Shown here in pieces: positions 7,097-36,320 of a stretch of DNA of 38,980 nt. Position 1 is the stretch's first letter. Each line of letters begins with the position of its first letter. This DNA comes from a virus: the IMG/VR virus record IMGVR_UViG_3300005265_000015, positions 1 through 38,980 of that record; one strand, 5' to 3'. Below the pieces are notes generated by a model. The model saw only the letters and a program-made list of their open reading frames with translations. It had not been told where the DNA came from and ran no database searches. Both the position numbers and the translations under genes were made by a program.

Positions 7097-7097
7097 A

Positions 7098-9110
7098 TTA
7101 TTTTAACCAACTTAATCCTTTTTTATAAAGAGAATAAGCAGTATCAGATATTTTACCAAGCAATCCTTCTCCTGTTCCATATTCTATTTCTAAAATTTCT
7201 TTTACTTCTTTTTCTTTTCCATCTTCTTTTGCTGCCGCTAAAATTTCATCATCATTTATACCCATTTTTTTTAATTCTAAAACAGTTTCTTTATTCCATT
7301 CTATTGTTTCAGCTTCTTTTTCAATTATTGTTATTGCCTCTTTTTTTGTAGTTCCATAAGGAACACCTAATTTTTCAGCTTCTGATACTGATAAAATTTT
7401 ATTATCTTCCTTTTCTGTTTCATCTAACCATTCAGCATAACTCTTGCCTGTGCCTTCTTCTCCGCCCGCAAGCTCCCATTCTCTAAATGACGTTGGTTTT
7501 GTGGGTTTTTTTGTTTGTTGCTTTGCTTTCCAATCTTCAAAACTCCCAGTATATCCTTGCTGTTGGGCATATTCATATTCTTTTATAGTAGAGGGTTTTG
7601 TGGGTTCTTTTACTTCTGGCGTTAATCCTGTATCAAATGTTTCTATGGTTCCATCATCATAAATAATAGATACTTGCGTTTTGTCATCTGAATACATTGT
7701 TGTTTTTATTTGCTTGTCATTTTTAGCGTTTTCCATAATAGATTGGATATAACCCTCTGGCAAACCTGCTTGTAATTCAAGTTGTTTTATTTTCAATACT
7801 TGAACATCATTTAAAGTATTATAATCAATATTATTATCTTGAAATGATTTTAATATGGTGTTGATATTTGCTCTGCTATCATTTTTTAACTTTTCAACAT
7901 ATGTTTGTTCTTTTTCTTCTGCTTTGCTTAAAAGATTATAAAGTTGAACATTTTTAGTAAATTCTTTTTCATAATATGCCGAAGTATTTTGAAAATCTTT
8001 ATTGGTTAAATCCATTATTATATTAAGAGTGTCAAGTTTATTATTTAATTGTCTGGCAACTGCGTTTCTTTCTATATTCAATAAAGCAATTTCTCTATCT
8101 GCTCTTTTTTGTAATGCTCCTTTTTCTCTCCCTATTTCTGTCATAGAAATCAACTTTTCTCCTGCTTCTTCTGCTTGAACCATCAATTGAGTTTTTATTC
8201 TTTCTATATTAGCGTCTATATCTGCTAATTTGGCTTCTAATGGTTCTATGCCAAGTTTAGCTTTTTCTTCCTGAAATAACTCTTGCAATGAAAGAGGTTT
8301 TGTTGTTTCTTCTTCTTTTTCTGTTTCAAGTTTGTCTTGAATATCTTTTAAAAGTTTTGCTGAATTTCGCATACTAACATCATCTTTGACTGGCAAATTA
8401 TCAAAAATATCTTGAGCTGTTTTGTTTACTTCATCGGCAATTTCTTGCTGTTGTTGCTGTTGTTGCTGTAAATCAATTTGGTTCGCTACTATATCTTTTG
8501 AAGTTTCTTTTGTATTTGTAGTTATAGTTTCTGTTTGCGCTTTTTGCCAATTTATATGAGCAGGGCTTCCTTCTGGAACCATTAAAGGAGCATTTACTGA
8601 ACCAATATTTACTTGTTTTGTTGAAGGCGTAATTTTAACAAATGTTTTATTGTTTTGTTTAGTTTGAGAGTTTATGCGAGTATCACGAAATTTAGGAGTA
8701 ATAACATTATTTGTTATGGCTGTTTTATCGCTTTGTTTGGCTTTATCGCTTTGTTTGGCTGTTTTAGTAGTAGTAGGTGATGTTTGTTGTGTCTTTTTAC
8801 GCAATAAATTAAGTAATTGAGTATTCTGTTGAGCTGTTCCTTTATATCCTGAAATACCATATTGTTTAGCAAGTTTAGCTCTGGTTAAATAATCGCTGGC
8901 TTGTCCTATTGATTTTAAGTAATCAACAATAGAAACGCCCGTATATGTAGTTGGTTTTACAATATTTTGTGTAGGAGTAGAAACTTCTTTATACCAAGAA
9001 CCCGTCGGCTGTGAAGCTGTTTTGTGTTTTGGGTCAAATTTATACTTTTTTCGCCATTCAATCATTTGAGCTTGATTTTTTGGCATTCCTGTTATGTATT
9101 TTTTTGCCAT
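7098..9110 (-). CDS. Large coiled-coil, low-complexity virion protein, 670 aa
   Basis: The N-terminal region has a module at about 60-107 (VDYLKSIGQASDYLTRAKLA and GTAQQNTQLLNLL) that resembles a short module I associate with some endolysins. It continues with Gln/Thr/Lys-rich repeats (KQSDKAKQSDK, and a run of eight Gln near 215), a long coiled coil at about 230-430, and at about 540-600 copies of the phage motif EYAQQQGYTGSFEDWKA / FREWELAGGEEGTGKSYAEW. That motif is frequent in large virion-associated proteins. It sits between the S74 fibre and the LPD38 protein, so an internal or ejected role is the best guess. Confidence 0.55.
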   Translation of the reverse strand: MAKKYITGMPKNQAQMIEWRKKYKFDPKHKTASQPTGSWYKEVSTPTQNIVKPTTYTGVSIVDYLKSIGQASDYLTRAKLAKQYGISGYKGTAQQNTQLLNLLRKKTQQTSPTTTKTAKQSDKAKQSDKTAITNNVITPKFRDTRINSQTKQNNKTFVKITPSTKQVNIGSVNAPLMVPEGSPAHINWQKAQTETITTNTKETSKDIVANQIDLQQQQQQQQEIADEVNKTAQDIFDNLPVKDDVSMRNSAKLLKDIQDKLETEKEEETTKPLSLQELFQEEKAKLGIEPLEAKLADIDANIERIKTQLMVQAEEAGEKLISMTEIGREKGALQKRADREIALLNIERNAVARQLNNKLDTLNIIMDLTNKDFQNTSAYYEKEFTKNVQLYNLLSKAEEKEQTYVEKLKNDSRANINTILKSFQDNNIDYNTLNDVQVLKIKQLELQAGLPEGYIQSIMENAKNDKQIKTTMYSDDKTQVSIIYDDGTIETFDTGLTPEVKEPTKPSTIKEYEYAQQQGYTGSFEDWKAKQQTKKPTKPTSFREWELAGGEEGTGKSYAEWLDETEKEDNKILSVSEAEKLGVPYGTTKKEAITIIEKEAETIEWNKETVLELKKMGINDDEILAAAKEDGKEKEVKEILEIEYGTGEGLLGKISDTAYSLYKKGLSWLK

Positions 9111-9112
9111 AA

Positions 9113-10945
9113 TTATTTTTGTTTAGATAATAAAAATTGAACTCCTAATAATGCTAATCCTGCCATATCATTGGCGGATAATCCTTTATTGTCTCCCAAC
9201 CCAAATAGTTTATAAGCGTCTTCTGCCATAGGAGTTAAATGTCTAATATTTTTTTTATGTTTTTTGTCTGTTTTATAAACATAATTCAAAATATTTAATT
9301 TTTTAATTTTCTCAACAATGTTTTTTAAATTTGGAGTTTGAAAATCTGTTTTTAATGTTTTACTACAAGCGTCTGTCCACGTTCCACCATTTGAAAGATA
9401 TGCTCCATTATCACAATTTATATATCGTCCTGAACCGTCATGTGTAAGATACATTAAATCAACACTACTACTTGCTGAATCTTGAGTAAATTCTACTACT
9501 CGTCCCCCACCATTATTAGAGAATAAAAGCATTGGCAAAGAAGCAGTGCCACTAGTTCTTACAATTTGTAATGATGATCCTGTTCCAGCATCTGTTATAT
9601 CTACGCACGATGAAGCATTAGTTGTTTCAGTTTGATTTATGTATAAACTTTTACCAGTCCCAGCATTAGTAATATCTATAACTGTGCCTATACCTGTTGC
9701 TGTTTTATTTATATCTAACACACAAGCATTTGTCGCTTGATCTATTTGGAGAGCTGTTGTTGTTACTCCATTAACGTGTTTTGTAATCAGTAAAGCTATT
9801 CCACCCACTCCCATTATTTCCTGTGTTATTCCTGTTCCGTTTCCTTCTACATAAAGAGTTCTTGCTGAACTTGCTCCGTCAGTATTTACAACAAATTGGA
9901 CTAAACTTCCTGCTGTATAATCAAGAGAGGGTAAACTTTCAATTGTTAACCCCATATCTTCAGCGCTTCTTGGAAGTATTTTTTGTATTATACTCTCTTC
10001 ACTTCCCGCGCTCCATATTAAATTATTTGAACTATCAATTAAACCAATAGAATTTGCTGATTGAGTAGGAGTTGAACCACTAGTTGATAATAATCTTATT
10101 CGTTTTCCTGAACTTGCTGTTTGTATTGTTCCCCCTGTTATTGCTCCGCCTTTCATTACTAAATCTGAACCATTATAAGAAAAATATTTAGAAGCGCTAT
10201 AATTCCCTATAAATAATTTAGCTGGGTCATTCGTTGCGCTGTCATCTAATCCTAAAATAAACGCTCCGCCGTTTGCGTCTCCACCTCTCCAATTTTCTAA
10301 ATCTAAATTATTGCCACCTGCTATATAACTATCCCCTGTTCCTGCGGCAACCGCTAAAATAAACGCTTTTGAAGTCATTGTTCCAGCAGTTAATTGATTT
10401 ATCGCTACATTTCCTGAATATACAGCATCTCCGTCAATTCCTATCGTAAAAGTGTTTACTCCCGCTTTTTTCCCTAATATCCCTGTGGGAGAAATCCATA
10501 CTCCATTATCAGCGTCTGTTATCATTTTAATTGCCCCTGATTCTCCAAAAGTAAAATCACCTAATATCTGTTTTGACGAGGTATTTAACCTTGTGTCTAT
10601 AAAATGCCCAGAACCATCTATTGCGGAAGCGAGAGTTGACGCTAACCGCCCGCCTATTGTTGAAGCGCCGTCTATAATTCCCCCTGTGAGCTGAATACCT
10701 GTTGCTGATATTATTCCGTCTGCCCCTAATTTCCAGCCAGCAGAACCGCTGACAAAATTATCTGACTGAATAGCCCTATATTCCGCTTTTATTCCAAGGT
10801 TTGCTAATTGATCTCTTATTAAAGTAAAATCATTTACTGCTTTAATTTGCCCTTGTTCTTCTGGTTTTAAATTCAAGCCTACATCAGATATTATTGAAGT
10901 TGGTATAGGAGATAATGAAAATGGTTTGTTCTCTATATAAATCAT
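9113..10945 (-). CDS. Tail fibre/spike with C-terminal S74-type chaperone domain, 610 aa
   Basis: The N terminus (about 1-60) would attach to the tail. The middle is a long series of short Gly/Ser/Thr-rich beta repeats (ITGGTIQTASSGKRIRLL, and repeated SLYINQTETTNASS, LQIVRTSGTAS) typical of trimeric fibres. The last 90 residues look like an intramolecular chaperone of the S74 type, with CSKTLKTDF, VEKIKKLNILNYVYK, LTPMAEDAYKLFGLGDNK and ANDMAGLALLGVQFL. The position where the self-cleaving Ser of the Ser-Lys pair is expected (five residues before the Lys) is a Cys. Host binding is the likely role. Confidence 0.8.
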   Translation of the reverse strand: MIYIENKPFSLSPIPTSIISDVGLNLKPEEQGQIKAVNDFTLIRDQLANLGIKAEYRAIQSDNFVSGSAGWKLGADGIISATGIQLTGGIIDGASTIGGRLASTLASAIDGSGHFIDTRLNTSSKQILGDFTFGESGAIKMITDADNGVWISPTGILGKKAGVNTFTIGIDGDAVYSGNVAINQLTAGTMTSKAFILAVAAGTGDSYIAGGNNLDLENWRGGDANGGAFILGLDDSATNDPAKLFIGNYSASKYFSYNGSDLVMKGGAITGGTIQTASSGKRIRLLSTSGSTPTQSANSIGLIDSSNNLIWSAGSEESIIQKILPRSAEDMGLTIESLPSLDYTAGSLVQFVVNTDGASSARTLYVEGNGTGITQEIMGVGGIALLITKHVNGVTTTALQIDQATNACVLDINKTATGIGTVIDITNAGTGKSLYINQTETTNASSCVDITDAGTGSSLQIVRTSGTASLPMLLFSNNGGGRVVEFTQDSASSSVDLMYLTHDGSGRYINCDNGAYLSNGGTWTDACSKTLKTDFQTPNLKNIVEKIKKLNILNYVYKTDKKHKKNIRHLTPMAEDAYKLFGLGDNKGLSANDMAGLALLGVQFLLSKQK

Positions 10946-10947
10946 AT

Positions 10948-12375
10948 TTACTCATAAAATATGCTTTCAATTTCACAAGCATTATTGTCTTTAACAGTAA
11001 ATTCTATTTTTAATTGTAAAGAAGCAATTTTCGGTATAGTTTCTTTTACTTTTTCCTGCACCAATTCTGTATCAGTAATAGAAGTTAAAGCGTTACTAAA
11101 AGATGTTTCATATTTTTTCTTATACTTAAAAGATATTCCGCAGTCTGCTGGCAATATTTTTGCGTAGTTTGCTATAATCTCTAAAACATTTTTAAAATAA
11201 TTTCTTTTATCTGGCGGAGTTAATATTCCAGTTTCTAAATAAGCAGACGGATATTTTTTAGACCAATTTAATTTATCAACGCCTTGCGCTGACGCAGACT
11301 TCCAGCTAACAAATAAATCCGCTCCTACTGTTAATACAGAGCCAATTTCAATGTTTTCAAGCCCACCCGATACAGGATAAGATAAATCCATTGTTTTAAG
11401 ATAATTTTTATCATAAGAACCAAAGCTATAAACTCCTTGTAAAATAGGATTGCCCGCAATATTAGACACCCCAAACACTGGAATAGTTAAATGAGTAGTA
11501 ACAGCATTAGGGTATATTTCAGCTGTTTTTGTTGGCTTCCAATCTCCGGGCAGTCTTAACGCAGGCTCTAAAAAAGACCCATTATAATAATAAATTCTAC
11601 CTTCTCTGCCTGCTTGAGCATAAGTATTATTACCATCTTTAATAAAAGCGTTTATTCCGTTTTCCTCTACTGTATCAATAACGCTCCAACTTTCGCTTAC
11701 AGTATCCCAACGAATAACATCACATCTATTTACATTTGCGTGTATAAAAGTGCCAAGCAAAATATCTATTCCATAAGTAGTTATTGTTTTAATTCTATGA
11801 GGCTGTCGTATATCCAAAGCATTTGCTGTAAAAGTATGAGAACCAGTTGCGCCAGAGATTTTAGCTACATAATGCGCGTCTCCTATAAATAAAGAAGTTC
11901 CTTGCTTAACCATAGGGTGAAAATTTGCGTCTGTGTTTGTAAATGTTCCCCAGTCCTCTACTGCGTTATCAGTCCAATTTTGAGCAGTTGCTATATTTTC
12001 AATAGGTATTCTATGAATACGACTTTCTGTCGCCCAATAGATATATCCGTCGTGTTCCATTGCTCCAAGACAACCTGCGCCACCTGCCGCGGGAGTTGTG
12101 GTATAAACTAACAACCAAGTTCCGTCTGTCGCTCTACGCCATATTTTTCCACTTGTATAAGAAAACCAAAATGTTTCCCCGCTTGAAGCGACAATGCTAA
12201 CTCTGCAAAGATCTGTTACTGTTGTCCCGCTATCTTTTTCTAATTTCTGTCTAACCTTAATAATTCCTGGAGTTGAATGAAAATCTAAGCCAACAAGCCT
12301 ATAAAAACTACCTGCAAGCCCACTCCATTTGGAGTTGCTTAATCCGCCGAATTGTCCGTTGAAAATAGGTTTCAT
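10948..12375 (-). CDS. Tail hub/nozzle-like structural protein, 475 aa
   Basis: The N terminus reads MKPIFNGQFGGLSNSKWSGL followed by a segment typical of podovirus tail proteins (VGLDFHSTPGIIKVRQKL). Regular blade-like repeats follow (HDGYIYWATESRIHRIPI, TSLFIGDAHYVAKI, NTYAQAGREGRIYYY), so a beta-propeller is likely, as in the nozzle or stabilisation proteins (T7 gp12 / P22 gp10 type). The C-terminal 80 residues (KIASLQLKIEFTVKDNNACE IESIFYE in two parts) form a beta-sandwich-like end. It overlaps the 53-aa gene before it by four bases (ATGA). Assignment rests on fold pattern and context. Confidence 0.6.
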   Translation of the reverse strand: MKPIFNGQFGGLSNSKWSGLAGSFYRLVGLDFHSTPGIIKVRQKLEKDSGTTVTDLCRVSIVASSGETFWFSYTSGKIWRRATDGTWLLVYTTTPAAGGAGCLGAMEHDGYIYWATESRIHRIPIENIATAQNWTDNAVEDWGTFTNTDANFHPMVKQGTSLFIGDAHYVAKISGATGSHTFTANALDIRQPHRIKTITTYGIDILLGTFIHANVNRCDVIRWDTVSESWSVIDTVEENGINAFIKDGNNTYAQAGREGRIYYYNGSFLEPALRLPGDWKPTKTAEIYPNAVTTHLTIPVFGVSNIAGNPILQGVYSFGSYDKNYLKTMDLSYPVSGGLENIEIGSVLTVGADLFVSWKSASAQGVDKLNWSKKYPSAYLETGILTPPDKRNYFKNVLEIIANYAKILPADCGISFKYKKKYETSFSNALTSITDTELVQEKVKETIPKIASLQLKIEFTVKDNNACEIESIFYE

Positions 12376-12989: not shown

Positions 12990-12998
12990 CGACCTTTA
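12990..12998 (-). promoter_or_regulatory. TAAAGGTCG motif, copy 2
   Basis: The motif again contains the stop codon of the gene before it (the S74 fibre) and lies 41 bases before the ATG at 12949. The spacing to the start is close to that of copies 1 and 4. Confidence 0.4.
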
Positions 12999-14627
12999 TT
13001 TATTATTTTTTTCTAATAATTCTATTTTTCCTAAAAGTTCTTGAACGCTTTTAATTAAAAGCGGCGTCAATGTTTTATAATTAATTGCCAAATATCCATC
13101 ACTCCTTTTCGTAACTGCCTCTGGATAAATTTTCTCTAAGTCTTGCGCTATCATTCCAGAGTGTTGTATATCCTCTTTTTCAAACTCATTTTTGTATTTA
13201 AAATCAATAACCTTAATTTTCATTAAATCATTTAAAGAATACTTTGTGTCTTTTATGTCTTTTTTAGTTGCTATGTCAGACGGAGCAGTTACATCTATGG
13301 TGCTGTTTCCTATATACATTGTTGTTGAACCATCACCGTGTGTAGCATCGTCTAAAAGAGAATTTGCTGTATAAGTGGTTGAGCCAATAGTTGCTCCGTT
13401 TGCTATATTAACATAGCCCGCACTATCTATTCTCATTCGTTCGGAGGGAGTAGCATCTGTGTCAGTTCCAGTTGTTTTAAATATTAATCGTCCTGGAATT
13501 GTATAAGGATTATCAGCTACTGCTCCATCTATTTCAGATATTATTTGAGTGCTAGCTTTAAATTTATCAACTGCTCCAACATATCCAAAAAAATTGATTG
13601 TTCCTATTATATCAGCAGAAGCAACAGCAGTTGGAGAGGCATAACTTCCTCTTGCTCTATAAAAACTTTGATAAAAATAAGCAGTATCGTTATATCTATA
13701 ACTTCTTATAAAAAAATTTATATCTGTAAAAATATTATCATCATATTTAAATTTTTGTCCAGAAGTATTAGTAAATATATTAGAAGCGCTTTTATCAACT
13801 AAATTCCCATTCGCTATCCCCGCAATAGTTCTTGCTGTTGTGTCAAATTCTATATTATCACCAAAATGAATTGTTCCAGTTTCTGTATAAATAGCATAAT
13901 TTGAAGTAGTCCCTTTATTTAATGAAGCAATATATAAACCATAATTATTAATAAGTGTGCCTGCTCCTGTTGGATTAAAAATTTTAACTCCATAAGAATT
14001 AGTTATAGTCCCACTATTGATTGCTAAATTAGAAACTAAGCCATAATTATTAGTCATAGTTCCAGTTGAATTATAAGTAGGTGCTACTTGAAAACCAGCA
14101 TAATGGTTATAATTGTTTGTGCCTTCAAAATCTATACGAGCGTCAAAAGAATTATATCCAATAGTTCCTGCTCTTGTTATGTCAGAACTATCAGAAAAAG
14201 CGTGTCCATTTCCTGTAATATCATCATTTACATTACGAGCAACTATAATTTGAGCGTCAACACTATTTAATGTAGCACTAGTTCCAGTTGTAAAAGTTAA
14301 ATTATCGCCCATTACTATATTTCCTTCCATAGTCAAGTCTGTAAGCGTAATACCAGCCAATGTAAGAGGATTAGAAGCCCTGTTTATCGCTACTTGCGTT
14401 GTTCCAATATAAAATGTTTGCCCTACATCAGCCTTGCTGTCTAACTGCGTCTGAACAGCAGAAGTAACCCCGCTCATAAAAGCAAGTTCTGACTTAGTTG
14501 CTCCGCCCACTAAATTAGCAAAAGTTATTTTTTTAGTTTCAGAATTGCTATCGTCAACAACAACAAATTCATCAGCCGAAACTGCTTCTGTTAGTTCTTT
14601 TAAATTTGATATGGGTTCATTTGCCAT
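12996..14627 (-). CDS. Tail fibre with C-terminal S74 peptidase/chaperone domain, 543 aa
   Basis: The N terminus (MANEPISNLKELTEAVSADE, FVVVDDSNSETKKITFANL) is an attachment module common in phage fibres. The shaft carries LTLAGITLTDLTMEGNIVMG and Gly/Asn-rich beta strands. The C-terminal 95 residues are an S74 domain: SDIATKKDIKD with Ser and Lys five residues apart, the expected catalytic pair, then LMKIKVIDFKYKNE, HSGMIAQDLEKIYPEAV, and LAINYKTLTPLLIKSVQEL leading into a coiled coil. The domain trimerises the fibre and then cleaves itself off. The stop overlaps TAAAGGTCG. Its start meets the adaptor stop at base 14627. Confidence 0.87.
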   Translation of the reverse strand: MANEPISNLKELTEAVSADEFVVVDDSNSETKKITFANLVGGATKSELAFMSGVTSAVQTQLDSKADVGQTFYIGTTQVAINRASNPLTLAGITLTDLTMEGNIVMGDNLTFTTGTSATLNSVDAQIIVARNVNDDITGNGHAFSDSSDITRAGTIGYNSFDARIDFEGTNNYNHYAGFQVAPTYNSTGTMTNNYGLVSNLAINSGTITNSYGVKIFNPTGAGTLINNYGLYIASLNKGTTSNYAIYTETGTIHFGDNIEFDTTARTIAGIANGNLVDKSASNIFTNTSGQKFKYDDNIFTDINFFIRSYRYNDTAYFYQSFYRARGSYASPTAVASADIIGTINFFGYVGAVDKFKASTQIISEIDGAVADNPYTIPGRLIFKTTGTDTDATPSERMRIDSAGYVNIANGATIGSTTYTANSLLDDATHGDGSTTMYIGNSTIDVTAPSDIATKKDIKDTKYSLNDLMKIKVIDFKYKNEFEKEDIQHSGMIAQDLEKIYPEAVTKRSDGYLAINYKTLTPLLIKSVQELLGKIELLEKNNK

Positions 14628-20272: not shown

Positions 20273-20833
20273 TTACCTTTGTAAAGCTTCAGGAATATTA
20301 TTTCCGTCAATCCTCATAGGACTGCCGTCTTGTCGCTTTAATAATTCGTTTTCAGCAATTCTTGTTTGACGTTGAGCGTCCATAACAATTTCAGCAACTT
20401 GTTTTGGAACTTCAACATACACTCCCTTCTTAATATTAAGACGATAGCCATTAAGAATTACGCTTTCGGTAGCCCCAAAGTTTTCTTTACTTTCCAATGG
20501 TATCATAATAGATACTCTTGGTTGTTTAAGAAGTTTAGCCTTCATAATTTCTGCTTTACTTCCTTTCGCAACTCTAGTATCACTTACGCCATAAGGTAAT
20601 CTAAAAGTTTCTTCTTCTTCTTTCTTTGTTTCTTCTTCTTTCTTTGTTTCTTCTTCTTTCTTTGTTTCTTCTTCTTTCTTTGTTTCTTCTTTCTTCTTCT
20701 TTCTTTGTTTATTCTTCTTTCTTTGTTTATTCTTCTTTCTTTGTTTATTCTTCTTTTTTGTTTCTTCTTCTTTTTTTGTTTCTTCTTCTTTCTTTGTTTC
20801 TTCTTCTTTTTTTGTTTCTTTTTGATTAGTCAT
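20273..20833 (-). CDS. Virion-region protein with long Lys/Glu repeat tail, 186 aa
   Basis: The C-terminal 110 residues form the conserved part: RLPYGVSDTRVAKGSKAEIM, PRVSIMIPLESKENFGATES, VILNGYRLNIKKGVYVEVPK, AEIVMDAQRQT. This block follows capsid genes in many phages and is of unknown function. The N-terminal 75 residues are repeats of KKEEET coded by an 18-base unit. In the middle the repeat is read in another frame as KKNKQR. That frame avoids the TAA that the variant unit would otherwise give. The repeat number is likely to vary by slippage. Confidence 0.7.
   Translation of the reverse strand: MTNQKETKKEEETKKEEETKKEEETKKKNKQRKKNKQRKKNKQRKKKKEETKKEEETKKEEETKKEEETKKEEEETFRLPYGVSDTRVAKGSKAEIMKAKLLKQPRVSIMIPLESKENFGATESVILNGYRLNIKKGVYVEVPKQVAEIVMDAQRQTRIAENELLKRQDGSPMRIDGNNIPEALQR
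20608..20822 (-). repeat. 18-bp tandem repeat tract (VNTR-like)
   Basis: About eleven copies of an 18-base unit (plus strand TTTCTTTGTTTCTTCTTC) with variants. Three central units have TTA instead of TTC, and the spacing around them is shifted by an indel on each side. The tract codes for the N-terminal tail of the 186-aa protein. Confidence 0.85.
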
Positions 20834-25023: not shown

Positions 25024-25264
25024 TAAGTTTTTTAATTGTTGTTTCCGCTATTTTGTATAATATTTGAATTATATTATGAATTTGTTTTTTTGTGTATAAT
25101 TCTTTTCTAAATCGTCTATGCCATTCAGGTTTTATATCTATGTAATGAAAATAAATTTCGTTGTTATATGTTAATAAAAATTCAAACCTTGTATCAAGAC
25201 GCCTGATATAAATTGGTATTCCTTTATATTTTATTTTTTTTAAGATTTGTATTTTTTTAGTCAT
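25010..25264 (-). CDS. Hypothetical basic protein, 84 aa
   Basis: I start it at MTKKIQILKK (25264), whose ATG overlaps the TerL stop (ATGACTAA). An ATG three codons earlier also exists. The protein is basic with a short beta-rich part (GIPIYIRRLDTRFEFLLTY, EIYFHYIDIKPEWHRRF) and a C-terminal helix. Family not recognised. It overlaps both neighbours, so it is translationally coupled with TerL and portal. Confidence 0.7.
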   Translation of the reverse strand: MTKKIQILKKIKYKGIPIYIRRLDTRFEFLLTYNNEIYFHYIDIKPEWHRRFRKELYTKKQIHNIIQILYKIAETTIKKLNVKK

Positions 25265-26437
25265 ACGGGTCAAAATCCCTTTTTATTCCTATTCTCTGTT
25301 GTTGAGATTTTATGTTTGGCATTATTCCAACTAATGCGTATCTTATAGCGTCCATTGAGTGTGAAAATTCGTGTTCTGGCTCATTCAACACATTACCATT
25401 TTTATCAACTTTCCACAAATAATTTCTGTATTCTTTAATTACATTTATGCTTCTTTTAGTTACTGATATTTTCTGCTCCTGAACATAGTTTATCCCGTTA
25501 AGAACACTATCTTTCCCTTTTTTATTTGCTCCAATAATATTTACTCCATATAATTTAATTTCTTCAATGTTTTGAGGGTTGGCGCTATCTGCTATAACTA
25601 ATGCTTCATCAACCGCCAACAATGTATCTGCTATTTCTTTATTTAATACTCCTTTTCTATAAAATATTTCATCTACAATATAGCCCCCATTGTAATAATA
25701 TATTGCCACAATCGCTGTTGGACTATTTGTAAAGCCAAAATCTAATCCGTATCGCTCTAACCTCGCTTCGTGCGGTATTTCATCAATTATTTTCCAGTTA
25801 GTATATATTTTGCCTTCTACTTCTCCTAATTGCCCTAACCCATATACTTTCCACCAATTTTTTCTGTGTTTGCGTTGCTCTATACTGGCTATTATTTCAT
25901 CGCTTAATGCTTCATTGTCTAAATAAGTTGTTACTAATTCCTCAACATCGTCTCTTTGATTTAATTCTGTGTAATACCAAAATTCTGAACTTGGGTTCCA
26001 GTCGAGATATACTAAATCTTTGGTTCTTACTTCTAATTGCTCAAACGCATTAAACTTTATATTGTTAGCTTCATTGATAAATAATCTGTCTCGCCTTGCT
26101 CCTCTTACTTTTGTTTCTTGGTCAACTGAAAAAAACTCTATAATACTGCCATTATCAAAGGTATATGTGCCTGTTTTATTCCAATTTTTTTTTTATATAA
26201 ATTTAATCCCTTCATTATGACTAAAAAATCTCTCATTGCTCCTCTTCTAAGATGCGGGAAACTCTCTGAAACTATACTGGTTATTGTTGGTTTTTTATCT
26301 CGTAAAGCTAAATCAATAAGAATAAGAATAACACTATATGTCTTACTGCTGCTTGTTCCCCCAGGCAATGCTCTTATTCTTTTAGTCATTGCTCTTATTT
26401 TTTTAGTTGCTGTTGTAATTCCAATTACATTATCCAT
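25257..26437 (-). CDS. terL: Terminase large subunit, about 393 aa, with a -1 frameshift at an A10 run
   Basis: The packaging motor and nuclease is split in two frames. The first frame from MDNVIGITTATKK (ATG overlaps the TerS stop) carries the Walker A motif LPGGTSSSKT and continues to NLYKKK. There, at ten A (minus strand of 26185-26194), it would run out at 26138. Shifting back one base restores NWNKTGTYTFDNGS, the Walker B region DRLFINEANN, the LDWNPSSEFWYY motif, the nuclease strand RYGLDFGFTNSPTAIV and the last Asp in HSMDAIRYAL. A -1 ribosomal shift, transcript slippage or a one-base assembly error would each explain it. Confidence 0.88.
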
Positions 26438-26846
26438 TTTTCTTTTTATTTTTTGTAAAATCAAAAAGTCTTATTGGCTCGCCTTTGCTTGTTAAGTCAA
26501 GCTGTTTAGTTATCCTTAATTTTAGTCGATTATATTCTTTAACTGCTCCCAATTTACTTTTGAGGTCTGCGTTTTGCGTTATCAATAATTCTAATTGTTT
26601 ATCTACAAACGAGTCGTTTAATCCTCTTAAATTTAATAATTTATCAATATATTTTAAAATGTAAGGTTTAGTAAGTAATTCATAAGCGCTTGTTTTTGCG
26701 TTATTATACCAGTTTCCCTTTTTCTTGATTTTATATGCTTTAATGTAACTTTGAACTCCATTGCAAAAAAATTCTTCCGAAGTAGCATATAATTCACAAA
26801 ATACCTTTTGTTTTGTTGTTAATTTTGTTTTTGCCTCTTTCCCCAT
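26430..26846 (-). CDS. terS: Terminase small subunit, 138 aa
   Basis: The sequence LTTKQKVFCELYATSEEFFC, NGVQSYIKAYKIKKKGNWYN, AKTSAYELLTKPYILKYIDK is the typical N-terminal HTH of phage small terminases that choose and bind the packaging site. The rest (FVDKQLELLITQNADLKSKL, AVKEYNRLKLRITKQ) is the oligomerisation helix. It follows the KH protein by two bases and overlaps TerL by eight bases. Confidence 0.88.
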   Translation of the reverse strand: MGKEAKTKLTTKQKVFCELYATSEEFFCNGVQSYIKAYKIKKKGNWYNNAKTSAYELLTKPYILKYIDKLLNLRGLNDSFVDKQLELLITQNADLKSKLGAVKEYNRLKLRITKQLDLTSKGEPIRLFDFTKNKKKNG

Positions 26847-26848
26847 AA

Positions 26849-27094
26849 TTATCTTTTTGGCTCAATTATTTTTATTTGAATTTTCTCTTTCTGAATAAAC
26901 GCAAATAACTTAACAATTAACTTAATTGCTTCAGCATGCTCTCCTCGTCGTCCTATAATTATTCCCATATCTTGCTTGCTTACTTGAAGTTGTAAAAATA
27001 TGCCACGATCATCTATACTCTCTATTATTTTTATTTCATTAGGATATTTTACTATTTTTTTAACAATAAATTCTAAAAACTCTTTTGATTTCAT
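26849..27094 (-). CDS. KH-domain RNA-binding protein, KhpA-like, 81 aa
   Basis: This matches the bacterial KhpA/YlqC pattern over its whole length: LEFIVKKIVKYPNEIKIIES, then LQLQVSKQDMGIIIGRRGEH with the RNA-binding GxxG loop (GRRG), AEAIKLIVKLFAFIQKEKI and a final beta strand. Cellular KhpA binds RNA and, with KhpB, affects cell-wall and sRNA functions. In a phage, directly upstream of terS, it may regulate late mRNA or modify host RNA control. The unit starts at promoter P6. Confidence 0.85.
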   Translation of the reverse strand: MKSKEFLEFIVKKIVKYPNEIKIIESIDDRGIFLQLQVSKQDMGIIIGRRGEHAEAIKLIVKLFAFIQKEKIQIKIIEPKR

Positions 27095-27584: not shown

Positions 27585-27613
27585 AACTATATACAATCTT
27601 TTTATACATCTAT

Positions 27614-27642
27614 ATTATACTCTTTATTACTTAAAATAGCAA
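27614..27642 (-). promoter_or_regulatory. Promoter P5 for the 89-aa gene
   Basis: On the minus strand TTGCTA (27642-27637), 17 bp, TATAAT (27619-27614), with a start near 27607 and a leader of about 22 bases. Confidence 0.55.
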
Positions 27643-27674
27643 TATTCGTTTTTTTATTTTCTTTTTTCATAAAT

Positions 27675-28595
27675 TTAAATTGTTTCTTGTATAGAATAAA
27701 CTTTACCTAAATTAGTTCCAGCATAAAGCCTGTTGTTATATACCGTTAAAGAATAAACATAAGAACTTACCTCTAATCTTCCAACCTCAGTCCAAATTGT
27801 TCCCCCTTCGTAGCGATATACCCTACTAGGATTCCCAAACCCAGCATAGAGTTTGCCGTTATATACCGCTAAGGAATAAATAGTAAAACCTAAGTCAATT
27901 TTTCCAACCTTTTCCCAAGTTGTTCCAACCTCTTTCCAAGTTGTTCCACCCTCATAACGAAAAACTTTGCCCTTGCCATATGTCCCAGCATATAATTTGC
28001 CGTTATATACTGTTAAAGCTTCTACACTGAATTCTAAGCCTAATTTTCCAACCTCTTCCCAAGTTGTTCCACCCTCGTAGTAGCGGTAGACCTTGCCAAA
28101 ATCCCCAGTCCCAGCATAAAGCCTGTTGTTATATACCGTTAAAGAATAAACATAAGAACTTACCTCTAATCTTCCAACCTCTTTCCAAGTTGTTCCACCC
28201 TCATAACGATAGACTCTGCCCTTACCATGTGCCCCAGCATATAATTTGCCGTTATATACTGTTAAAGCTTCTACACCGAATTCTCCTAAACCTAACTGAC
28301 CAACATTAGTCCAAGTTTTCCCGCCTTCGTAGCGGTAGACCTTGCCAAAATCATCAGTTCCAGCATAGAGTTTGCCGTTATACACAGCTAAGGAATACAC
28401 ATAAGAACTTGCCCCCAATTTTCCAACCTCTTTCCAAGTTGTTCCACCCTCATAACGAAAGATTTTACCTAAAAAAAACTTTGTCCCGCCATAGAGTTTG
28501 CCGTTATACACAGCTAAACAATGAACATCGGCATTTTCCCCTAATTCTCCAACCTCAGTGATAATAATATTTGTTTTTTTATTTTCTTTTTTCAT
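27675..28595 (-). CDS. Seven-bladed beta-propeller protein C, 306 aa
   Basis: Seven repeats of about 42 residues fill the protein. The consensus is VGxLGxxxxVxSLAVYNGKLYAGTxxxGKVYRYEGGxTW, in which the tryptophan and YNGKLYAGT strand recur in each blade. The fifth blade has a small duplication (TTWKEVGTTWEK). The last blade ends in VYSIQETI. It has no signal peptide, so it acts inside the cell or in the virion. It belongs to a set of three paralogs (also 29057-29992 and 30871-31773), separated by one gene each. The stop-to-start spacing is TAA-AATT-ATG. The ligand is unknown. Confidence 0.85.
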   Translation of the reverse strand: MKKENKKTNIIITEVGELGENADVHCLAVYNGKLYGGTKFFLGKIFRYEGGTTWKEVGKLGASSYVYSLAVYNGKLYAGTDDFGKVYRYEGGKTWTNVGQLGLGEFGVEALTVYNGKLYAGAHGKGRVYRYEGGTTWKEVGRLEVSSYVYSLTVYNNRLYAGTGDFGKVYRYYEGGTTWEEVGKLGLEFSVEALTVYNGKLYAGTYGKGKVFRYEGGTTWKEVGTTWEKVGKIDLGFTIYSLAVYNGKLYAGFGNPSRVYRYEGGTIWTEVGRLEVSSYVYSLTVYNNRLYAGTNLGKVYSIQETI

Positions 28596-28599
28596 AATT

Positions 28600-29052
28600 T
28601 TAAATTTGTTCTAATAATAAATTTTCCTTTTTTTTAGGAAAAGGAATTGACACTTCCCCTCCTGTTCTTTCTATTATTACTTTGTTAATAACATCATATA
28701 TTTTATCAATTTCCTGCATTTTATCTAAATTTTTTGTGCTTTTTTTATTAAACATCGCTTTTTGTAAAGGTTTCCATAAAACTTCTTTAATCAAATATGG
28801 CGTCCATATTACTTCTGCGTTTAACTTAATTATTTTATTCATATAAAATCCTGATTCATTCAAGGCTCTTGCTAACAGAGTAAACCATAAATGTAAAGCC
28901 TTATTTTGCCTGTTTGTTCTCTTTTTATTCATTATATTTATAACCACATCATCATATTTAGAAAATTTATTTTGCGCTTTTTGTTTTGCTTCTTTTACGC
29001 TATTTGCTTGAATAACTAATTGAACAGTAGCAGCAATATAATATTTTTTCAT
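28600..29052 (-). CDS. NinB-like/Orf-like recombination protein, 150 aa
   Basis: Residues about 1-35 form a small beta-alpha unit (YYIAATVQLVIQANSVKEAK). The core reads KKRTNRQNKALHLWFTLLAR, ALNESGFYMNKIIKLNAEVI, WTPYLIKEVLWKPLQKAM, KKSTKNLDKMQEIDKIYDVI, and VSIPFP near the end. The NRQNKALH pattern recalls NinB-type proteins that bind single-stranded DNA and aid recombination. Context next to the exonuclease and annealing protein agrees. The exact family is uncertain. Confidence 0.6.
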   Translation of the reverse strand: MKKYYIAATVQLVIQANSVKEAKQKAQNKFSKYDDVVINIMNKKRTNRQNKALHLWFTLLARALNESGFYMNKIIKLNAEVIWTPYLIKEVLWKPLQKAMFNKKSTKNLDKMQEIDKIYDVINKVIIERTGGEVSIPFPKKKENLLLEQI

Positions 29053-29056
29053 ATTC

Positions 29057-29992
29057 TTAGAATATCCTTTGAATATCCTTTTTTTTAGTTATTTCTTGTA
29101 TAGAATAAACTTTGCCTAAAAAACCCCCAGCCCCAGCATAGAGCCTGTTGTTATATACTACTAAAGAATGCACATCGGTATTCACCCCTAATATTCCAAC
29201 TTCTTTCCAAGTTTTCCCACCTTTGTAGCGATAGACTCTGCCTGAATCAGTTCCAGCATAGAGTTTGCCGTTATACACAGCTAAAGAATAAATATCGGTA
29301 TTTTCCCTTAATCTTCCCACTTCTTCCCAAATTATCCCGCCTTCATAGCGATAGACTTTGCCCTTGCCATATGTCCCAGCATATAATTTACCGTTATATA
29401 CAACTAAGGAATGCGCATAAAGACTCGTTCCTAACCTTCCAACCTCTTTCCAAGTTTTTCCCCCTTCATAACGATATACTTTACCTGATAACCCAGTTCC
29501 AGCATAGAGCCTGTTGTTATATACAGCTAAGGAAGCCACATAATAATTCGACGAGCCTAATATTCCAACCTCTTCCCAAATTGTCCCACCTTCATAGCGA
29601 TAGACTCTGCCCTTGCCATATGTCCCAGCATATAATTTGCCGTTATATACTGTTAAAGCTTCTACACTGAATTCTTCTAAACCTAACTGACCAACCTCAG
29701 TCCAAATTGTCTCGCCTTCGTAACGAAAGACTTTGCCAAATAACCCAGTCCCAGCATAAAGTTTGCCGTTATATACCGCTAAGGAATACACAGCGGGATT
29801 TTCCCCTATTTCCCCTAACCTTCCAATATCAGTCCAAGGTTTTCCGCCGTCATAGCGGTAAACCTTGCCAGATAACCCAGTTCCAGCATATAATTTATCG
29901 TTATATACAACTAAAGAATGAACAGCACGATTTTCCCCTAATCTTCCAACCTCAGTGATAATAATATTCGTTTTTTTATTTATAATTTTCAT
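29057..29992 (-). CDS. Seven-bladed beta-propeller protein B, 311 aa
   Basis: Seven blades of the same consensus as paralogs A and C. The first blades read VHSLVVYNDKLYAGTGLSGK and VYSLAVYNGKLYAGTGLFGK. The second blade has a GEIGEN insertion. Its last blade continues past the SIQE motif into a basic tail (KKKDIQRIF) that A and C lack. Individual blades are nearly identical to blades at other positions in A and C (for example LRENTDIYSLAVYNGKLYAG is blade 6 here and blade 3 in A), so blades have been shuffled. Confidence 0.85.
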   Translation of the reverse strand: MKIINKKTNIIITEVGRLGENRAVHSLVVYNDKLYAGTGLSGKVYRYDGGKPWTDIGRLGEIGENPAVYSLAVYNGKLYAGTGLFGKVFRYEGETIWTEVGQLGLEEFSVEALTVYNGKLYAGTYGKGRVYRYEGGTIWEEVGILGSSNYYVASLAVYNNRLYAGTGLSGKVYRYEGGKTWKEVGRLGTSLYAHSLVVYNGKLYAGTYGKGKVYRYEGGIIWEEVGRLRENTDIYSLAVYNGKLYAGTDSGRVYRYKGGKTWKEVGILGVNTDVHSLVVYNNRLYAGAGGFLGKVYSIQEITKKKDIQRIF

Positions 29993-29996
29993 AAAT

Positions 29997-30845
29997 TTAA
30001 AATTCAGCTATTTTTTTGAATAATAAATATTTTCCTTCCCTTTCTTTGATAATGAAATTTTCCTTGTTTTTGGTAGTATATCCATTTTTTGCTAAAAATT
30101 CAGCGAACTCTTTTTTCTTTTTTAATTGTTTTTGTTCTTTTTCTTTTCGGTCAATTTCTGCCTGTTTTTGCGCAATTTCTGCTTGGATTTTTTCTTTTGC
30201 AATTCTTTCCTTTTCTCGCGCGGCTTCTTTCTCTTGAATTTCGGCTTTAAGTCTTATATTTTCTTTCTTAATCCGCTCTTGTTCTGCTCGCTCTGCTTTC
30301 TCTTGTGCTATACGCTCTTGCTCCGCTTTCTTTTCGGCTTCTTGTTGAGCTTCAAAGGCAATTTTAGAAGAATTTAAAAGATTATTAAATCCTTTATCGC
30401 TCATTTCTTTGAGATTATACATTTTTACATCTTCAACATAAGGCTGTAATTTTGCAATTCGCTCTGCGTTGATTTTTTCTTTTTTGGCTTCTTCTATCAA
30501 TTCAAAATGTTTCTCTATTTTTTGCAATTCTGCTTCTTTACCAATAGCGGAAAATTTTTGAGCATTTCGCCAAGCGTCAACAAAACGTCCTCCTGCCAAA
30601 TAATACGCCTTTGCTTTTTTGTGTATTTCGTCTGTTCCAGTTCTAACTTTGACATATTTTAAACGCAATTCCCGAGCTTTTTGGATTGAATTAGTATTGA
30701 TTGGTAATTTAATAATCGCATTATAATCTTTTTCTAACTCCACCATTTTTTGCAACATTGGCGTAAAGACTGCTTCAATCTTTTGAGCTTCTGTTTTTTT
30801 AAGTCCAAACTCTTGTGGGTTGATTGCTACTAATTGTTTTTGCAT
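29997..30845 (-). CDS. Coiled-coil recombination-associated protein, 282 aa
   Basis: I start it at MQKQLVAINPQEFG (30845). An in-frame ATG at 30866 is preceded by an echo of the same bases. Residues 1-130 contain EFGLKKTEAQKIEAVFTPML and GTDEIHKKAKAYYLAGGRFV, a pattern found in phage proteins encoded beside ERF/RecT-type genes. Residues about 165-255 are one long charged coiled coil (EAEKKAEQERIAQEKAERAE), and the C terminus is a short globular end. Probably a recombination accessory, exact role unknown. Confidence 0.65.
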   Translation of the reverse strand: MQKQLVAINPQEFGLKKTEAQKIEAVFTPMLQKMVELEKDYNAIIKLPINTNSIQKARELRLKYVKVRTGTDEIHKKAKAYYLAGGRFVDAWRNAQKFSAIGKEAELQKIEKHFELIEEAKKEKINAERIAKLQPYVEDVKMYNLKEMSDKGFNNLLNSSKIAFEAQQEAEKKAEQERIAQEKAERAEQERIKKENIRLKAEIQEKEAAREKERIAKEKIQAEIAQKQAEIDRKEKEQKQLKKKKEFAEFLAKNGYTTKNKENFIIKEREGKYLLFKKIAEF

Positions 30846-30870
30846 AATTTTATTTTGTTTTTGCATAATT

Positions 30871-31773
30871 TTAAATTGTTTCTTGTATAGAATAAACTTT
30901 GCCTAAATTAGTCCCAGCATAGAGTTTGCCGTTATACACAGCTAAGGAATACACATAAGAACTTGCCCCCAATTTTCCAACCTCTTTCCAAGTTTTTCCC
31001 CCTTCGTAACGATATACTTTACCTAAATCATCAGTTCCAGCATAGAGCCTGTTGTTATATACAGCTAAAGAAGCTATATAAGAAGAATTCGAGCCCAATT
31101 TACCAACCTCTTTCCAAATTGTCCCACCTTCATAGCGATAGACTTTACCCTTGCCATATGTCCCAGCATAGAGTTTGCCGTTATATTTATATACTGTTAA
31201 AGCTTCTACACTGAATTCTAAACCTAACTGACCAACATTCGTCCAAGTTGTTCCACCTTCGTAGCGATATACTTTGCCAAAAACTCCAGCCCCAGCATAG
31301 AGTTTGTTGTTATACACTGTTAAAAAATAAACACCAAAACCTAAACTAAATCTCACAACCTCTTTCCAAATTGTTCCGCCTTCGTAGCGATAGACTTTGC
31401 TCTTACCATATGTTCCAGCATAGAGTTTGCCGTTATATACAGCTAAAGAATAAATATCGGTATTTTCCCTTAATCTTCCCACCTCTTTCCAAATTTTCCC
31501 GCCTTCGTAGCGATATACTTTGCCTGACACCCCAGTTCCAGCATAGAGTTTGCCGTTATATACCGCTAAGGAATGAACATAAAAACTCGTTCCTAACCTT
31601 CCAACATCCATCCAAATTGTCCCGCCTTCGTAGCGATATACCTTGCCAAATAACCCAGTCCCACCGCCATAGAGTTTGCCGTTATATACCGCTAAGGAAT
31701 GAACAGCACGATTTGCCCCTAATTCTCCAACATCAGTAATAATAGTATTCGTTTTTTTATTTATAATTTTCAT
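30871..31773 (-). CDS. Seven-bladed beta-propeller protein A, 300 aa
   Basis: Seven blades with the consensus of B and C. The first blade is VGELGANRAVHSLAVYNGKL and the last ends TNLGKVYSIQETI as in C. Blade 4 is divergent (VVRFSLGFGVYFLTVYNN), and blade 5 has an inserted KY in VYKYNGKLYAG. It starts four bases after the exonuclease stop. Propeller genes in a phage recombination operon are not something I know from other phages. Possible roles are binding a host protein or blocking a defence system. Confidence 0.85.
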   Translation of the reverse strand: MKIINKKTNTIITDVGELGANRAVHSLAVYNGKLYGGGTGLFGKVYRYEGGTIWMDVGRLGTSFYVHSLAVYNGKLYAGTGVSGKVYRYEGGKIWKEVGRLRENTDIYSLAVYNGKLYAGTYGKSKVYRYEGGTIWKEVVRFSLGFGVYFLTVYNNKLYAGAGVFGKVYRYEGGTTWTNVGQLGLEFSVEALTVYKYNGKLYAGTYGKGKVYRYEGGTIWKEVGKLGSNSSYIASLAVYNNRLYAGTDDLGKVYRYEGGKTWKEVGKLGASSYVYSLAVYNGKLYAGTNLGKVYSIQETI

Positions 31774-31777
31774 AATT

Positions 31778-32341
31778 TTAAAAAGTAAATGTTTTTTCCA
31801 ATTCTTTTAATTGTTCTAAAACTCGTCTTTCCAGCTCAAGATACTCATCTACTTTTTCCTGCACATCTTTGCGGTGAATTGTAAAGTAGAAAAAATCTTT
31901 TGGCATTCTCGGGTCAAAAAAGACAAAATATAGTGTTTTAAGTTTATCATTTACTATAAAATATTGACATTTTTGAGCTTCGTATTCTGTTGGAATTTCT
32001 TGTGTAAGATATGCTTCAATATGCCGAGCAGATGAAAGACATTTAACTTCTACCGCTTCTGTTTTGCCAATTGCTCCGTCCGGACTAATTGCAATGTTCT
32101 CGTCATCATCTCTTGTCCATATTATTAAACTGCTATCTACTTTTTTTCCTGTTTCTTGCTCAAATCTTTCTATTGCGTATTCCTCTAATCGTTTGCCCCT
32201 ATCAATTCTATTCTCGTTACTGGCGGGGATAGCGATGCGTTCAGCAATTAGTTCATAATACCCGATTTTAGGTTTTGTGCTTCTTTTATTTATTAAATCT
32301 TTTAAGCGAGTACCCGTTATCTTGCCTCTACGATTGAACAA
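31778..32341 (-). CDS. YqaJ/lambda-type recombination exonuclease, about 187-199 aa
   Basis: This family degrades one strand of duplex DNA ends and works with a single-strand annealing protein. Visible motifs are RRGKITGTRLKDLIN, NRIDRGKRLEEYAIERFEQE, then AISPDGAIGKTEAVEVKCL with the metal-binding Asp, Glu and Lys, and EYEAQKCQYFIV. The first usual start codon is TTG at 32341, but conserved residues EEEW precede it in the open frame. No ATG exists in that extension. An ATT at 32377-32375 sits in a normal start context, so a non-standard start giving 199 aa is possible. Confidence 0.85.
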   Translation of the reverse strand: MFNRRGKITGTRLKDLINKRSTKPKIGYYELIAERIAIPASNENRIDRGKRLEEYAIERFEQETGKKVDSSLIIWTRDDDENIAISPDGAIGKTEAVEVKCLSSARHIEAYLTQEIPTEYEAQKCQYFIVNDKLKTLYFVFFDPRMPKDFFYFTIHRKDVQEKVDEYLELERRVLEQLKELEKTFTF

Positions 32342-32382
32342 CCATTCTTCTTCATTTTTGAAAGATATTGTTTTAATGTTTT

Positions 32383-32440: not shown

Positions 32441-33181
32441 TTATTTTTCAGATACTAATATTTTCAAACGATTTTTTATTTCAACAAAATTCTTATCAAC
32501 CAGATCTAATTGCGTAAGTCTTTTAACTGTCTTTTGTATTTGCTCTCTTGTATTTGCTTCTTGTCCTAAATTTCTTAATAGAAATAAAATTTGAGCTTTG
32601 ATTGATTTAGATTCATCTTGCTTTGAAACACTAAGACTATCGTCATCTTCATCGCCTGTGGAAATTCCTAAAGCGTTACAAAGAGAATATCTTTTAGCAA
32701 AAGTAAGAGCAGAAGCAATTTTCTGCGGAGCAGTCATAAACCCTTCTTGATCTACTGGCACAACAAATGAACTTGTCTCTGAATGACCCATTTTGTGAGT
32801 TACTTTAACTGTGGCTTTAACCTCTCCATTTGTATTTTCTGTTGTCCAAGTATAAGCAAAACCATTTTCAGCAAGCGGTTTTTTTATCTGGGCAACGATT
32901 GCGTCAATAGGAGCATATTCATATCTTATTGTTATCCCATCTTTATTCAGCACTTTTTTAGTTTTCTTAATAACAGGACATTCACCTTGAAATTTAGCTA
33001 ATGCTTCTATGTATATTTCTTTTGCTTGTTCCTGTTTTATTTTTTCCCGAAGAGCAAAAAACCTTTCCATTACTTCAATAGGCAATTTTTCTTTTATTGC
33101 TTGCAAAATAAAAGTATTTATAGATATATCAGATTTTATTGCTGCTACTTTTTCTTCTTTTTTTATTATTTCTTTTTTCAT
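32441..33181 (-). CDS. ERF-family single-strand annealing protein, 246 aa
   Basis: Landmarks of the ERF family are EALAKFQGECPVIKKTKKVL, IRYEYAPIDAIVAQIKKPLA, ENGFAYTWTTE, VTHKMGHSETSSFVVPVD, and ASALTFAKRYSLCNALGI followed by STGDEDDD. These proteins anneal complementary single strands and circularise phage genomes. The C-terminal 60 residues are a variable helical tail. E6 lies in its leader. The exonuclease gene follows after a 99-base gap. Confidence 0.88.
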   Translation of the reverse strand: MKKEIIKKEEKVAAIKSDISINTFILQAIKEKLPIEVMERFFALREKIKQEQAKEIYIEALAKFQGECPVIKKTKKVLNKDGITIRYEYAPIDAIVAQIKKPLAENGFAYTWTTENTNGEVKATVKVTHKMGHSETSSFVVPVDQEGFMTAPQKIASALTFAKRYSLCNALGISTGDEDDDSLSVSKQDESKSIKAQILFLLRNLGQEANTREQIQKTVKRLTQLDLVDKNFVEIKNRLKILVSEK

Positions 33182-36245: not shown

Positions 36246-36320
36246 TGGCAGAGGCACCCTGATTCGAACAAGGATCAATGGTTTTGGAGACCATTATTCT
36301 AACCGTTGAACTATACCCCC
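36246..36320 (-). tRNA. tRNA-Trp (anticodon CCA)
   Basis: A full 75-base cloverleaf is readable on the minus strand. The acceptor GGGGGTA pairs with TGCCTCT (with G-U pairs). The D arm is GTTC...GAAT. The anticodon stem ATGGT/ACCAT encloses loop CTCCAAA with anticodon CCA. The variable region TGAT is short. The T arm is CCTTG-TTCGAAT-CAGGG. The discriminator is G73, as in bacterial tRNA-Trp, and the CCA end is encoded. It lies downstream of promoter P4 and element E4. Confidence 0.92.

Follow-up and report, generated by a model that had tools for sequence, protein, structure and literature searches.

Propeller paralogs interleaved with phage recombination genes exchange blade segments and vary in two loops

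What are three similar beta-propeller proteins doing among the recombination genes of a phage, and how did their blades come to differ? The question is raised by IMG/VR virus record IMGVR_UViG_3300005265_000015, a metagenome contig of an uncultured virus with ends that are not closed, the whole 38,980 bases of which are referred to here as the window. On its minus strand, the genes follow in the order ERF annealing protein, YqaJ exonuclease, propeller C, a coiled-coil gene, propeller B, a NinB-like gene and propeller A. A preliminary description made from the sequence had proposed that three seven-bladed paralogs of 300-311 amino acids (aa) alternate with the coiled-coil and NinB-like genes, and this layout is borne out by the open reading frames, the blade anchors and a structural model of B. 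All three propellers are intact reading frames with seven blade anchors each and 70% mutual identity in an alignment to B:

30871..31773 (-), propeller C, 300 aa, seven blades (open reading frame; blade anchors; PF19755, DUF6242, 29.2 bits against a cut-off of 29)
29057..29992 (-), propeller B, 311 aa, seven blades (open reading frame; AlphaFold2 model with predicted local distance difference test, pLDDT, of 90.4 and predicted template modelling score, pTM, of 0.90; DUF6242, 48.6 bits)
27675..28595 (-), propeller A, 306 aa, seven blades (open reading frame; blade anchors; DUF6242, 35.8 bits)

The blades of these proteins recombine within and between the paralogs. Their DNA identity runs from 59 to 87%, with a mean of ~72%, so that the earlier wording "near-identical" was an overstatement. 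The pairwise homoplasy index (PHI) was 0.719 against 0.901 +/- 0.030 under permutation, with 0 of 500 permutations as low and the same outcome for third codon positions only. Furthermore, exact tracts join non-corresponding blade positions, within one gene or between genes:

28360..28440 and 30914..30994 (-), exact 81-nucleotide tract, A blades 1/2 and C blades 6/7
28111..28181 and 27718..27788 (-), exact 71-nucleotide tract, A blades 3/4 and A blades 6/7
27968..28035 and 29608..29675 (-), exact 68-nucleotide tract, A blades 4/5 and B blades 2/3
29277..29320 and 31439..31482 (-), exact 44-nucleotide tract, B blades 5/6 and C blades 2/3

Each tract covers the last part of one blade and the first part of the following one, and no blade is shared in full. 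Because the tracts cross blade boundaries, the unit of exchange is a segment around the D-A loop rather than a whole blade. Thus, of the proposal that blades are common to different positions, the recombination stands, and the check for gene conversion on blade DNA suggested at the time came out in its favour; the sharing of whole blades does not stand. Blades at the same position in A, B and C are slightly more alike than expected by chance (15 of 1000 permutations as high), a likeness that we take for a remnant of whole-gene duplication. Small in-frame duplications are present in blade 5 of A (TTWEKVG) and blade 5 of C (TVYKYN). A diversity-generating retroelement as the source of the diversity was rejected, since no match to the reverse transcriptase family PF00078 was found in G000 or G001, records that may both be fragments, while control genomes matched.

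The arrangement is seen again in a second phage that is otherwise unrelated. When B alone served as the query against viral and genome collections, no relatives emerged; only alignment queries succeeded, and alignment-based scans of IMG/VR yielded the 35-kb contig IMGVR_UViG_3300005265_000083 (L010). Its gene order is a Cas4-like exonuclease (phrog_1706, E=5e-12), two propellers directly downstream, one gene, two more propellers, a methyltransferase and a RusA-like resolvase; the intervening gene gives a weak replication-initiation match and by eye resembles a single-strand-binding protein. Identity between the three full-length L010 propellers and the window set is 54-61%, and at an E value of 1e-3 no other homologous genes were found between the two contigs except for one LamG-like match. 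The L010 blades recombine as well (PHI 0.855 versus 1.212 permuted, 0 of 500 as low; longest exact repeat 73 nucleotides), and the paralogs have no positional memory, blade identity being 76.4% at the same position and 76.8% at different ones. Fixed blades with no exchange in relatives, which the preliminary description had named as grounds for abandoning its view, are thus not what this sole close relative displays. In a blade tree, which has too few columns for dating or rooting the transfer, the blades group mostly by phage and not by position or gene, which indicates concerted evolution.

In L010, the intervening gene (6911-7462) opens with the leader seen on the propellers (MMSIIA...), and at its 3' end it overlaps with the beginning of the third propeller, so that the copied unit appears to comprise leader and propeller together. 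The same gene looks as though cassettes landed at both its ends. The fourth L010 propeller, s (8312-9004), has five blades only and an unrelated C-terminal tail, and may be decaying or may oligomerise. The L010 DNA methyltransferase (9011-11041) carries an in-frame HNH/LAGLIDADG-like interruption, possibly an intein or a homing insertion. The window itself holds a further leader, downstream of A and ending at a stop after 22 codons, which had escaped the preliminary description:

27602..27670 (-), truncated fourth leader after A, MKKENKKTNIAILSNKEYNIDV then stop (sequence and leader comparison; 4-nucleotide spacer)

Relatives of both operons are found without propellers. L183 is related to the window operon through the ERF C-terminus, the exonuclease (52% identity), the coiled-coil protein (44%) and, further on, TerS (60%) and TerL; there the coiled-coil gene lies 5 nucleotides 3' of the exonuclease, and L183 has no propeller. 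Propellers were also absent from all 14 relatives of the L010 exonuclease, and in those inspected other small genes come after the exonuclease. Among 30 contigs with a related major capsid protein, many of them fragments, none had a standalone propeller, the only hit being a weak 49-residue match in a 547-aa frame; searching these contigs with the window exonuclease gave no matches, an uninformative result given the many fragments. Because relatives of both operons are without them, the propellers are best regarded as acquired accessory cassettes, gained beside an exonuclease gene in two lineages.

The AlphaFold2 model of B, obtained with an alignment of seven propellers, has seven four-stranded blades, the last of which is plausibly closed by an N-terminal strand (residues 10-17). 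Together with a high mutual identity of the blades (mean 65% aa identity in the window and 76% in L010), this closed fold agrees with that of highly repetitive beta-propellers. Assignment to a named family is less informative. The DUF6242 gathering cut-off is passed by all three proteins, by C barely; several unrelated propeller models also match A, B and C repeat by repeat, and the DUF6242 name therefore tells little about function. Neither GH nor W[DN] of the WD40 type occurs in A, B or C, PF00400 is absent among their Pfam matches, and the canonical Asp-box [ST]xDxGx[TV][WF] is absent as well; a degenerate Asp-box-like motif, [DE]xGxxW, lies at the expected C-D turn in most blades (4-7 per window propeller). 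The proteins are standalone, consisting of the propeller only, with no NACHT, effector or additional domains and no obvious signal peptide. By VIA-align, the model of B reached Z scores of 33.8 to the propeller lyase 2z2o and 31.4 to the designed seven-bladed v13WRAP-T. An enzymatic reading based on the best structural match, streptogramin B lyase, was not adopted, as identity is 12-13%, the Z scores of nearly all propellers are similar, and one fixed catalytic site is ill-suited to interchangeable blades. The nearest match in a cultured phage, Levilactobacillus phage ENFP1, is distant (31% identity), and matches in plasmids are likewise distant.

Replacements accumulate mainly in the B-C and D-A loops. 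The two loops lie on one face of the ring, a placement that follows from strand order and the general knowledge of the fold rather than from coordinates. Among 22 equal-length blades of L010, the ratio of nonsynonymous to synonymous polymorphism (pN/pS) was 0.13 in the framework, 0.86 in the B-C loop (codons 12-14 and 16) and 1.02 in the D-A loop (codons 34-39); the eight equal-length blades of the window gave 0.89 and 1.53 for the same loops and 0.34 elsewhere. With loop boundaries taken from the structural model, independently of the data, the 95% intervals of the nonsynonymous rate of the top face over the overall synonymous rate, dN(top)/dS(all), were 0.64-0.86 in L010 and 0.99-1.75 in the window, and 0.12-0.29 in the strands. 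In a cross-test that avoids circularity by taking the five fastest codons of one phage for measurement in the other, dN/dS from pairwise counts with bootstrap on recombining repeats was 1.93 (1.58-2.40) for the window blades and 1.33 (1.12-1.60) for the L010 blades. The two phages also agree in their per-codon dN (Spearman correlation 0.64).

The neighbouring genes are those of a recombination operon:

32441..33181 (-), ERF single-strand annealing protein (PF04404, E=5e-23; phrog_155, E=4e-37)
31778..32377 (-), YqaJ-type exonuclease (PF09588, E=2e-15; alignment to L183 from residue 1)
29997..30866 (-), coiled-coil gene of the recombination operon, 289 aa (open reading frame; homologues near a YqaJ exonuclease elsewhere)
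28600..29052 (-), NinB-like gene, 150 aa, weak assignment (phrog_72, E=2e-4; Pfam NinB, E=0.069, below cut-off)

All five stop-to-start spacers measure 4 nucleotides, as the preliminary description had it, and so does a sixth, after A. It was also right about the position of the NinB-like gene, the name of which is a weak assignment, and about the presence of the exonuclease. Its view that the exonuclease starts the operon is less certain: the ERF gene lies 63 nucleotides upstream, and the operon therefore need not begin at the exonuclease. Homology of the exonuclease to L183 begins at an ATT codon (32377), upstream of a TTG at 32341, and a non-ATG start is therefore likely. The coiled-coil homologue lies directly 3' of the YqaJ exonuclease in L183, and in Cellulophaga phage phi10:1 a single gene separates the two. 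No Shine-Dalgarno sequence was found at the window propellers, whereas L010 has strong sites (AAGGAGG), which suggests that the two phages have different hosts.

Elsewhere in the window, the large terminase (25257-26464, -) is split between different frames, an N-terminal part at 26138-26464 and a C-terminal part from ~26150 down to 25257, by one frameshift, which is either genuine or due to a sequencing error. A KhpA/KhpB-type KH-domain RNA-binding protein (26849-27094, -; PF13083, E=5e-18) is encoded immediately ahead of the terminase genes. An 18-nucleotide tandem array of 11 copies (TTCTTCTTCTTTCTTTGT; 20612-20820) is contained in an open reading frame (20273-20833) adjoining the major head protein, and a tRNA-Trp (CCA) gene is located at 36246-36320 (-).

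The reading that we favour, with a probability of about 0.5, is that A, B and C work inside the cell in recognition or as decoys and owe their diversity to the exchange of blade segments. One unit of leader and seven-bladed propeller would have entered the recombination operon beside the exonuclease gene and been copied into neighbouring gene junctions, after which the blades would swap segments through homologous recombination or gene conversion. Such exchange would homogenise the framework and reassort the hypervariable B-C and D-A loops, and the propellers might bind or decoy a variable partner in the host cell, be it a host factor, a defence component or another mobile element. Operon position and the lack of an obvious signal peptide point to a cytoplasmic location and early expression; the variable face of the ring may be the binding site, and variety itself may be selected. 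By their proximity, the phage's own ERF protein and exonuclease could drive the exchange. We entertain, as a doubtful extension, that this is a diversity generator free of reverse transcriptase, in which a movable cassette of leader and propeller settles in phage recombination operons and the exonuclease and annealing protein reassort blade segments during replication, giving rise to new intracellular specificities against host or competitor factors.

Several points weigh against intracellular recognition. The arrangement was seen in one other phage only. The dN/dS values do not come from a tree-based or formal codon-model test, and strongly relaxed constraint on the loops could explain part of them. 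A recombination function of the propellers themselves retains some probability. Finally, the same codons are hypervariable in virion-type phage propellers (L011, L022-L024) and in Elusimicrobiota proteins, so that diversified loops are a property of the whole propeller family and not specific to this operon. This control rules out a loop diversity peculiar to the recombination-operon copies and leaves no specific pointer to an intracellular arms race or host takeover. Of the diversification proposed in the preliminary description, that of loops on one face therefore holds, and its value as a sign of host takeover is weakened. The distinctive feature of A, B and C lies in their setting, as standalone genes in several copies that alternate with those for recombination. 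The Elusimicrobia GWA2_62_23 proteins (L100, L102, L103) exceed 2000 aa, with 16-28 blade motifs and the same hypervariable codons, and form a large unexplored reservoir.

The family-wide control also keeps alive an explanation that we hold to be unlikely, in which the propellers belong to the particle as lectin-like components, or are set free at lysis, and bind surface glycans or receptors with the variable face. Other phage members of the family do sit in large proteins amid apparent tail or virion genes (L011, L013, L018, L022-L024), with the same variable loops where tested, and a diversified propeller lectin is known from Streptomyces umbrella toxins (PMC13274773). Yet in both phages the standalone genes, devoid of extra domains or an obvious signal peptide, belong to a recombination and not a structural operon, and the window has a separate tail-fibre gene (12996-14627), with no further copies of the A/B/C-type propeller found elsewhere in its 38,980 bases. 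Quite improbable, in our estimate, is that the locus is a by-product of a chance entry into the operon, in which repeat-driven recombination produced tandem copies and mosaic blades with relaxed loops and no selection for diversity. Repeats do recombine readily, relatives lack propellers, and the duplications in A and C, the truncated leader and the five-bladed L010 copy are signs of untidy duplication. Against this, seven blades and an open frame are retained in all six full-length propellers of the two phages, strong purifying selection acts on the framework (the pN/pS of 0.13 in L010) while loop dN exceeds dS under cross-validation, and the arrangement recurs in an otherwise unrelated phage.

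Their position between recombination genes in two otherwise unrelated phages could also mean that the propellers are scaffolds or clamps for the neighbouring exonuclease, annealing or single-strand-binding protein, and those of the window are basic (isoelectric point, pI, 9.1-9.6). This is very unlikely, in that propellers q and r of L010 have an acidic pI (5.2-5.4), the same operons do without propellers in relatives, and variation is greatest where a fixed partner would demand conservation. DNA binding read from charge is unsupported for the same reason, the L010 propellers being partly acidic. That a short-read assembler joined repeats into mosaic blades is conceivable for an uncultured metagenome record with similar repeats and open ends, but we consider it the most improbable account: the longest exact repeats (81 nucleotides in the window, 73 in L010) are below ordinary read length, all copies have intact frames, and the pattern is also present in the L010 contig, which is ascribed to another metagenome.

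If intracellular recognition proves to be correct, phages maintain among their recombination genes a limited set of ring-shaped binders, the variable faces of which are reassorted by recombination. Such cassettes also turn up in phages with almost nothing else in common. They would be the prokaryotic equivalent of the fungal propellers for non-self recognition, would achieve diversity by a route other than diversity-generating retroelements, and would offer both natural scaffolds on which loops can be swapped and a testable tie of phage recombinases to the diversification of proteins.

Among known systems, PADLOC, the models of which describe defence and not anti-defence systems, returned weak matches only, and in our incomplete coverage of the literature we found no precedent for standalone propeller paralogs exchanging blades in phage recombination operons. 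By profile scores above the cut-off and by the degenerate Asp-box-like motif, A, B and C resemble DUF6242 and the neighbouring Kelch, Asp-box and Reg_prop propellers. They share the blade family and hypervariable positions with the propeller domains of virion-type phage proteins (L011, L022-L024), which, in contrast, are parts of proteins of 550-1840 aa encoded beside apparent structural genes. As in highly repetitive propellers, including WRAP and Asp-box types (PMC9218822, PMC6805158), each ring has near-alike blades amplified from single blades; unlike in those, standalone paralogs here swap blade segments after amplification, between phage recombination genes, and the words "phage" and "recombination" are absent from the main text on highly repetitive propellers (PMC9218822). 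The propeller lectins of Streptomyces umbrella toxins (PMC13274773) likewise combine a conserved blade core with ligand-pocket positions that diverge between blades, but they are multi-domain proteins of secreted antibacterial particles, encoded outside recombination operons. The closest parallel in evolutionary behaviour is offered by the HNWD proteins of Podospora anserina (HET-D, HET-E and HET-R; PMC1805685, PMC2873952). In HET-D and HET-E, WD40 units are exchanged and evolve in concert, with positive selection at D-A and B-C codon pairs, and the strongly selected codons 7/9 and 25/27 surround a conserved codon (PMC1805685); in the window and L010 blades, codons 37/39 flank a conserved V38. 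Exchange within and between paralogs, concerted evolution and an excess of top-face D-A and B-C replacements, here measured as dN/dS from pairwise counts only, are thus found in both systems. The Podospora repeats, however, are WD40 units fused to NACHT and effector domains in a fungal receptor, whereas the phage proteins have an Asp-box/Kelch-like blade, no effector and a place in a phage operon, and the likeness is accordingly one of mode of evolution, not of membership.

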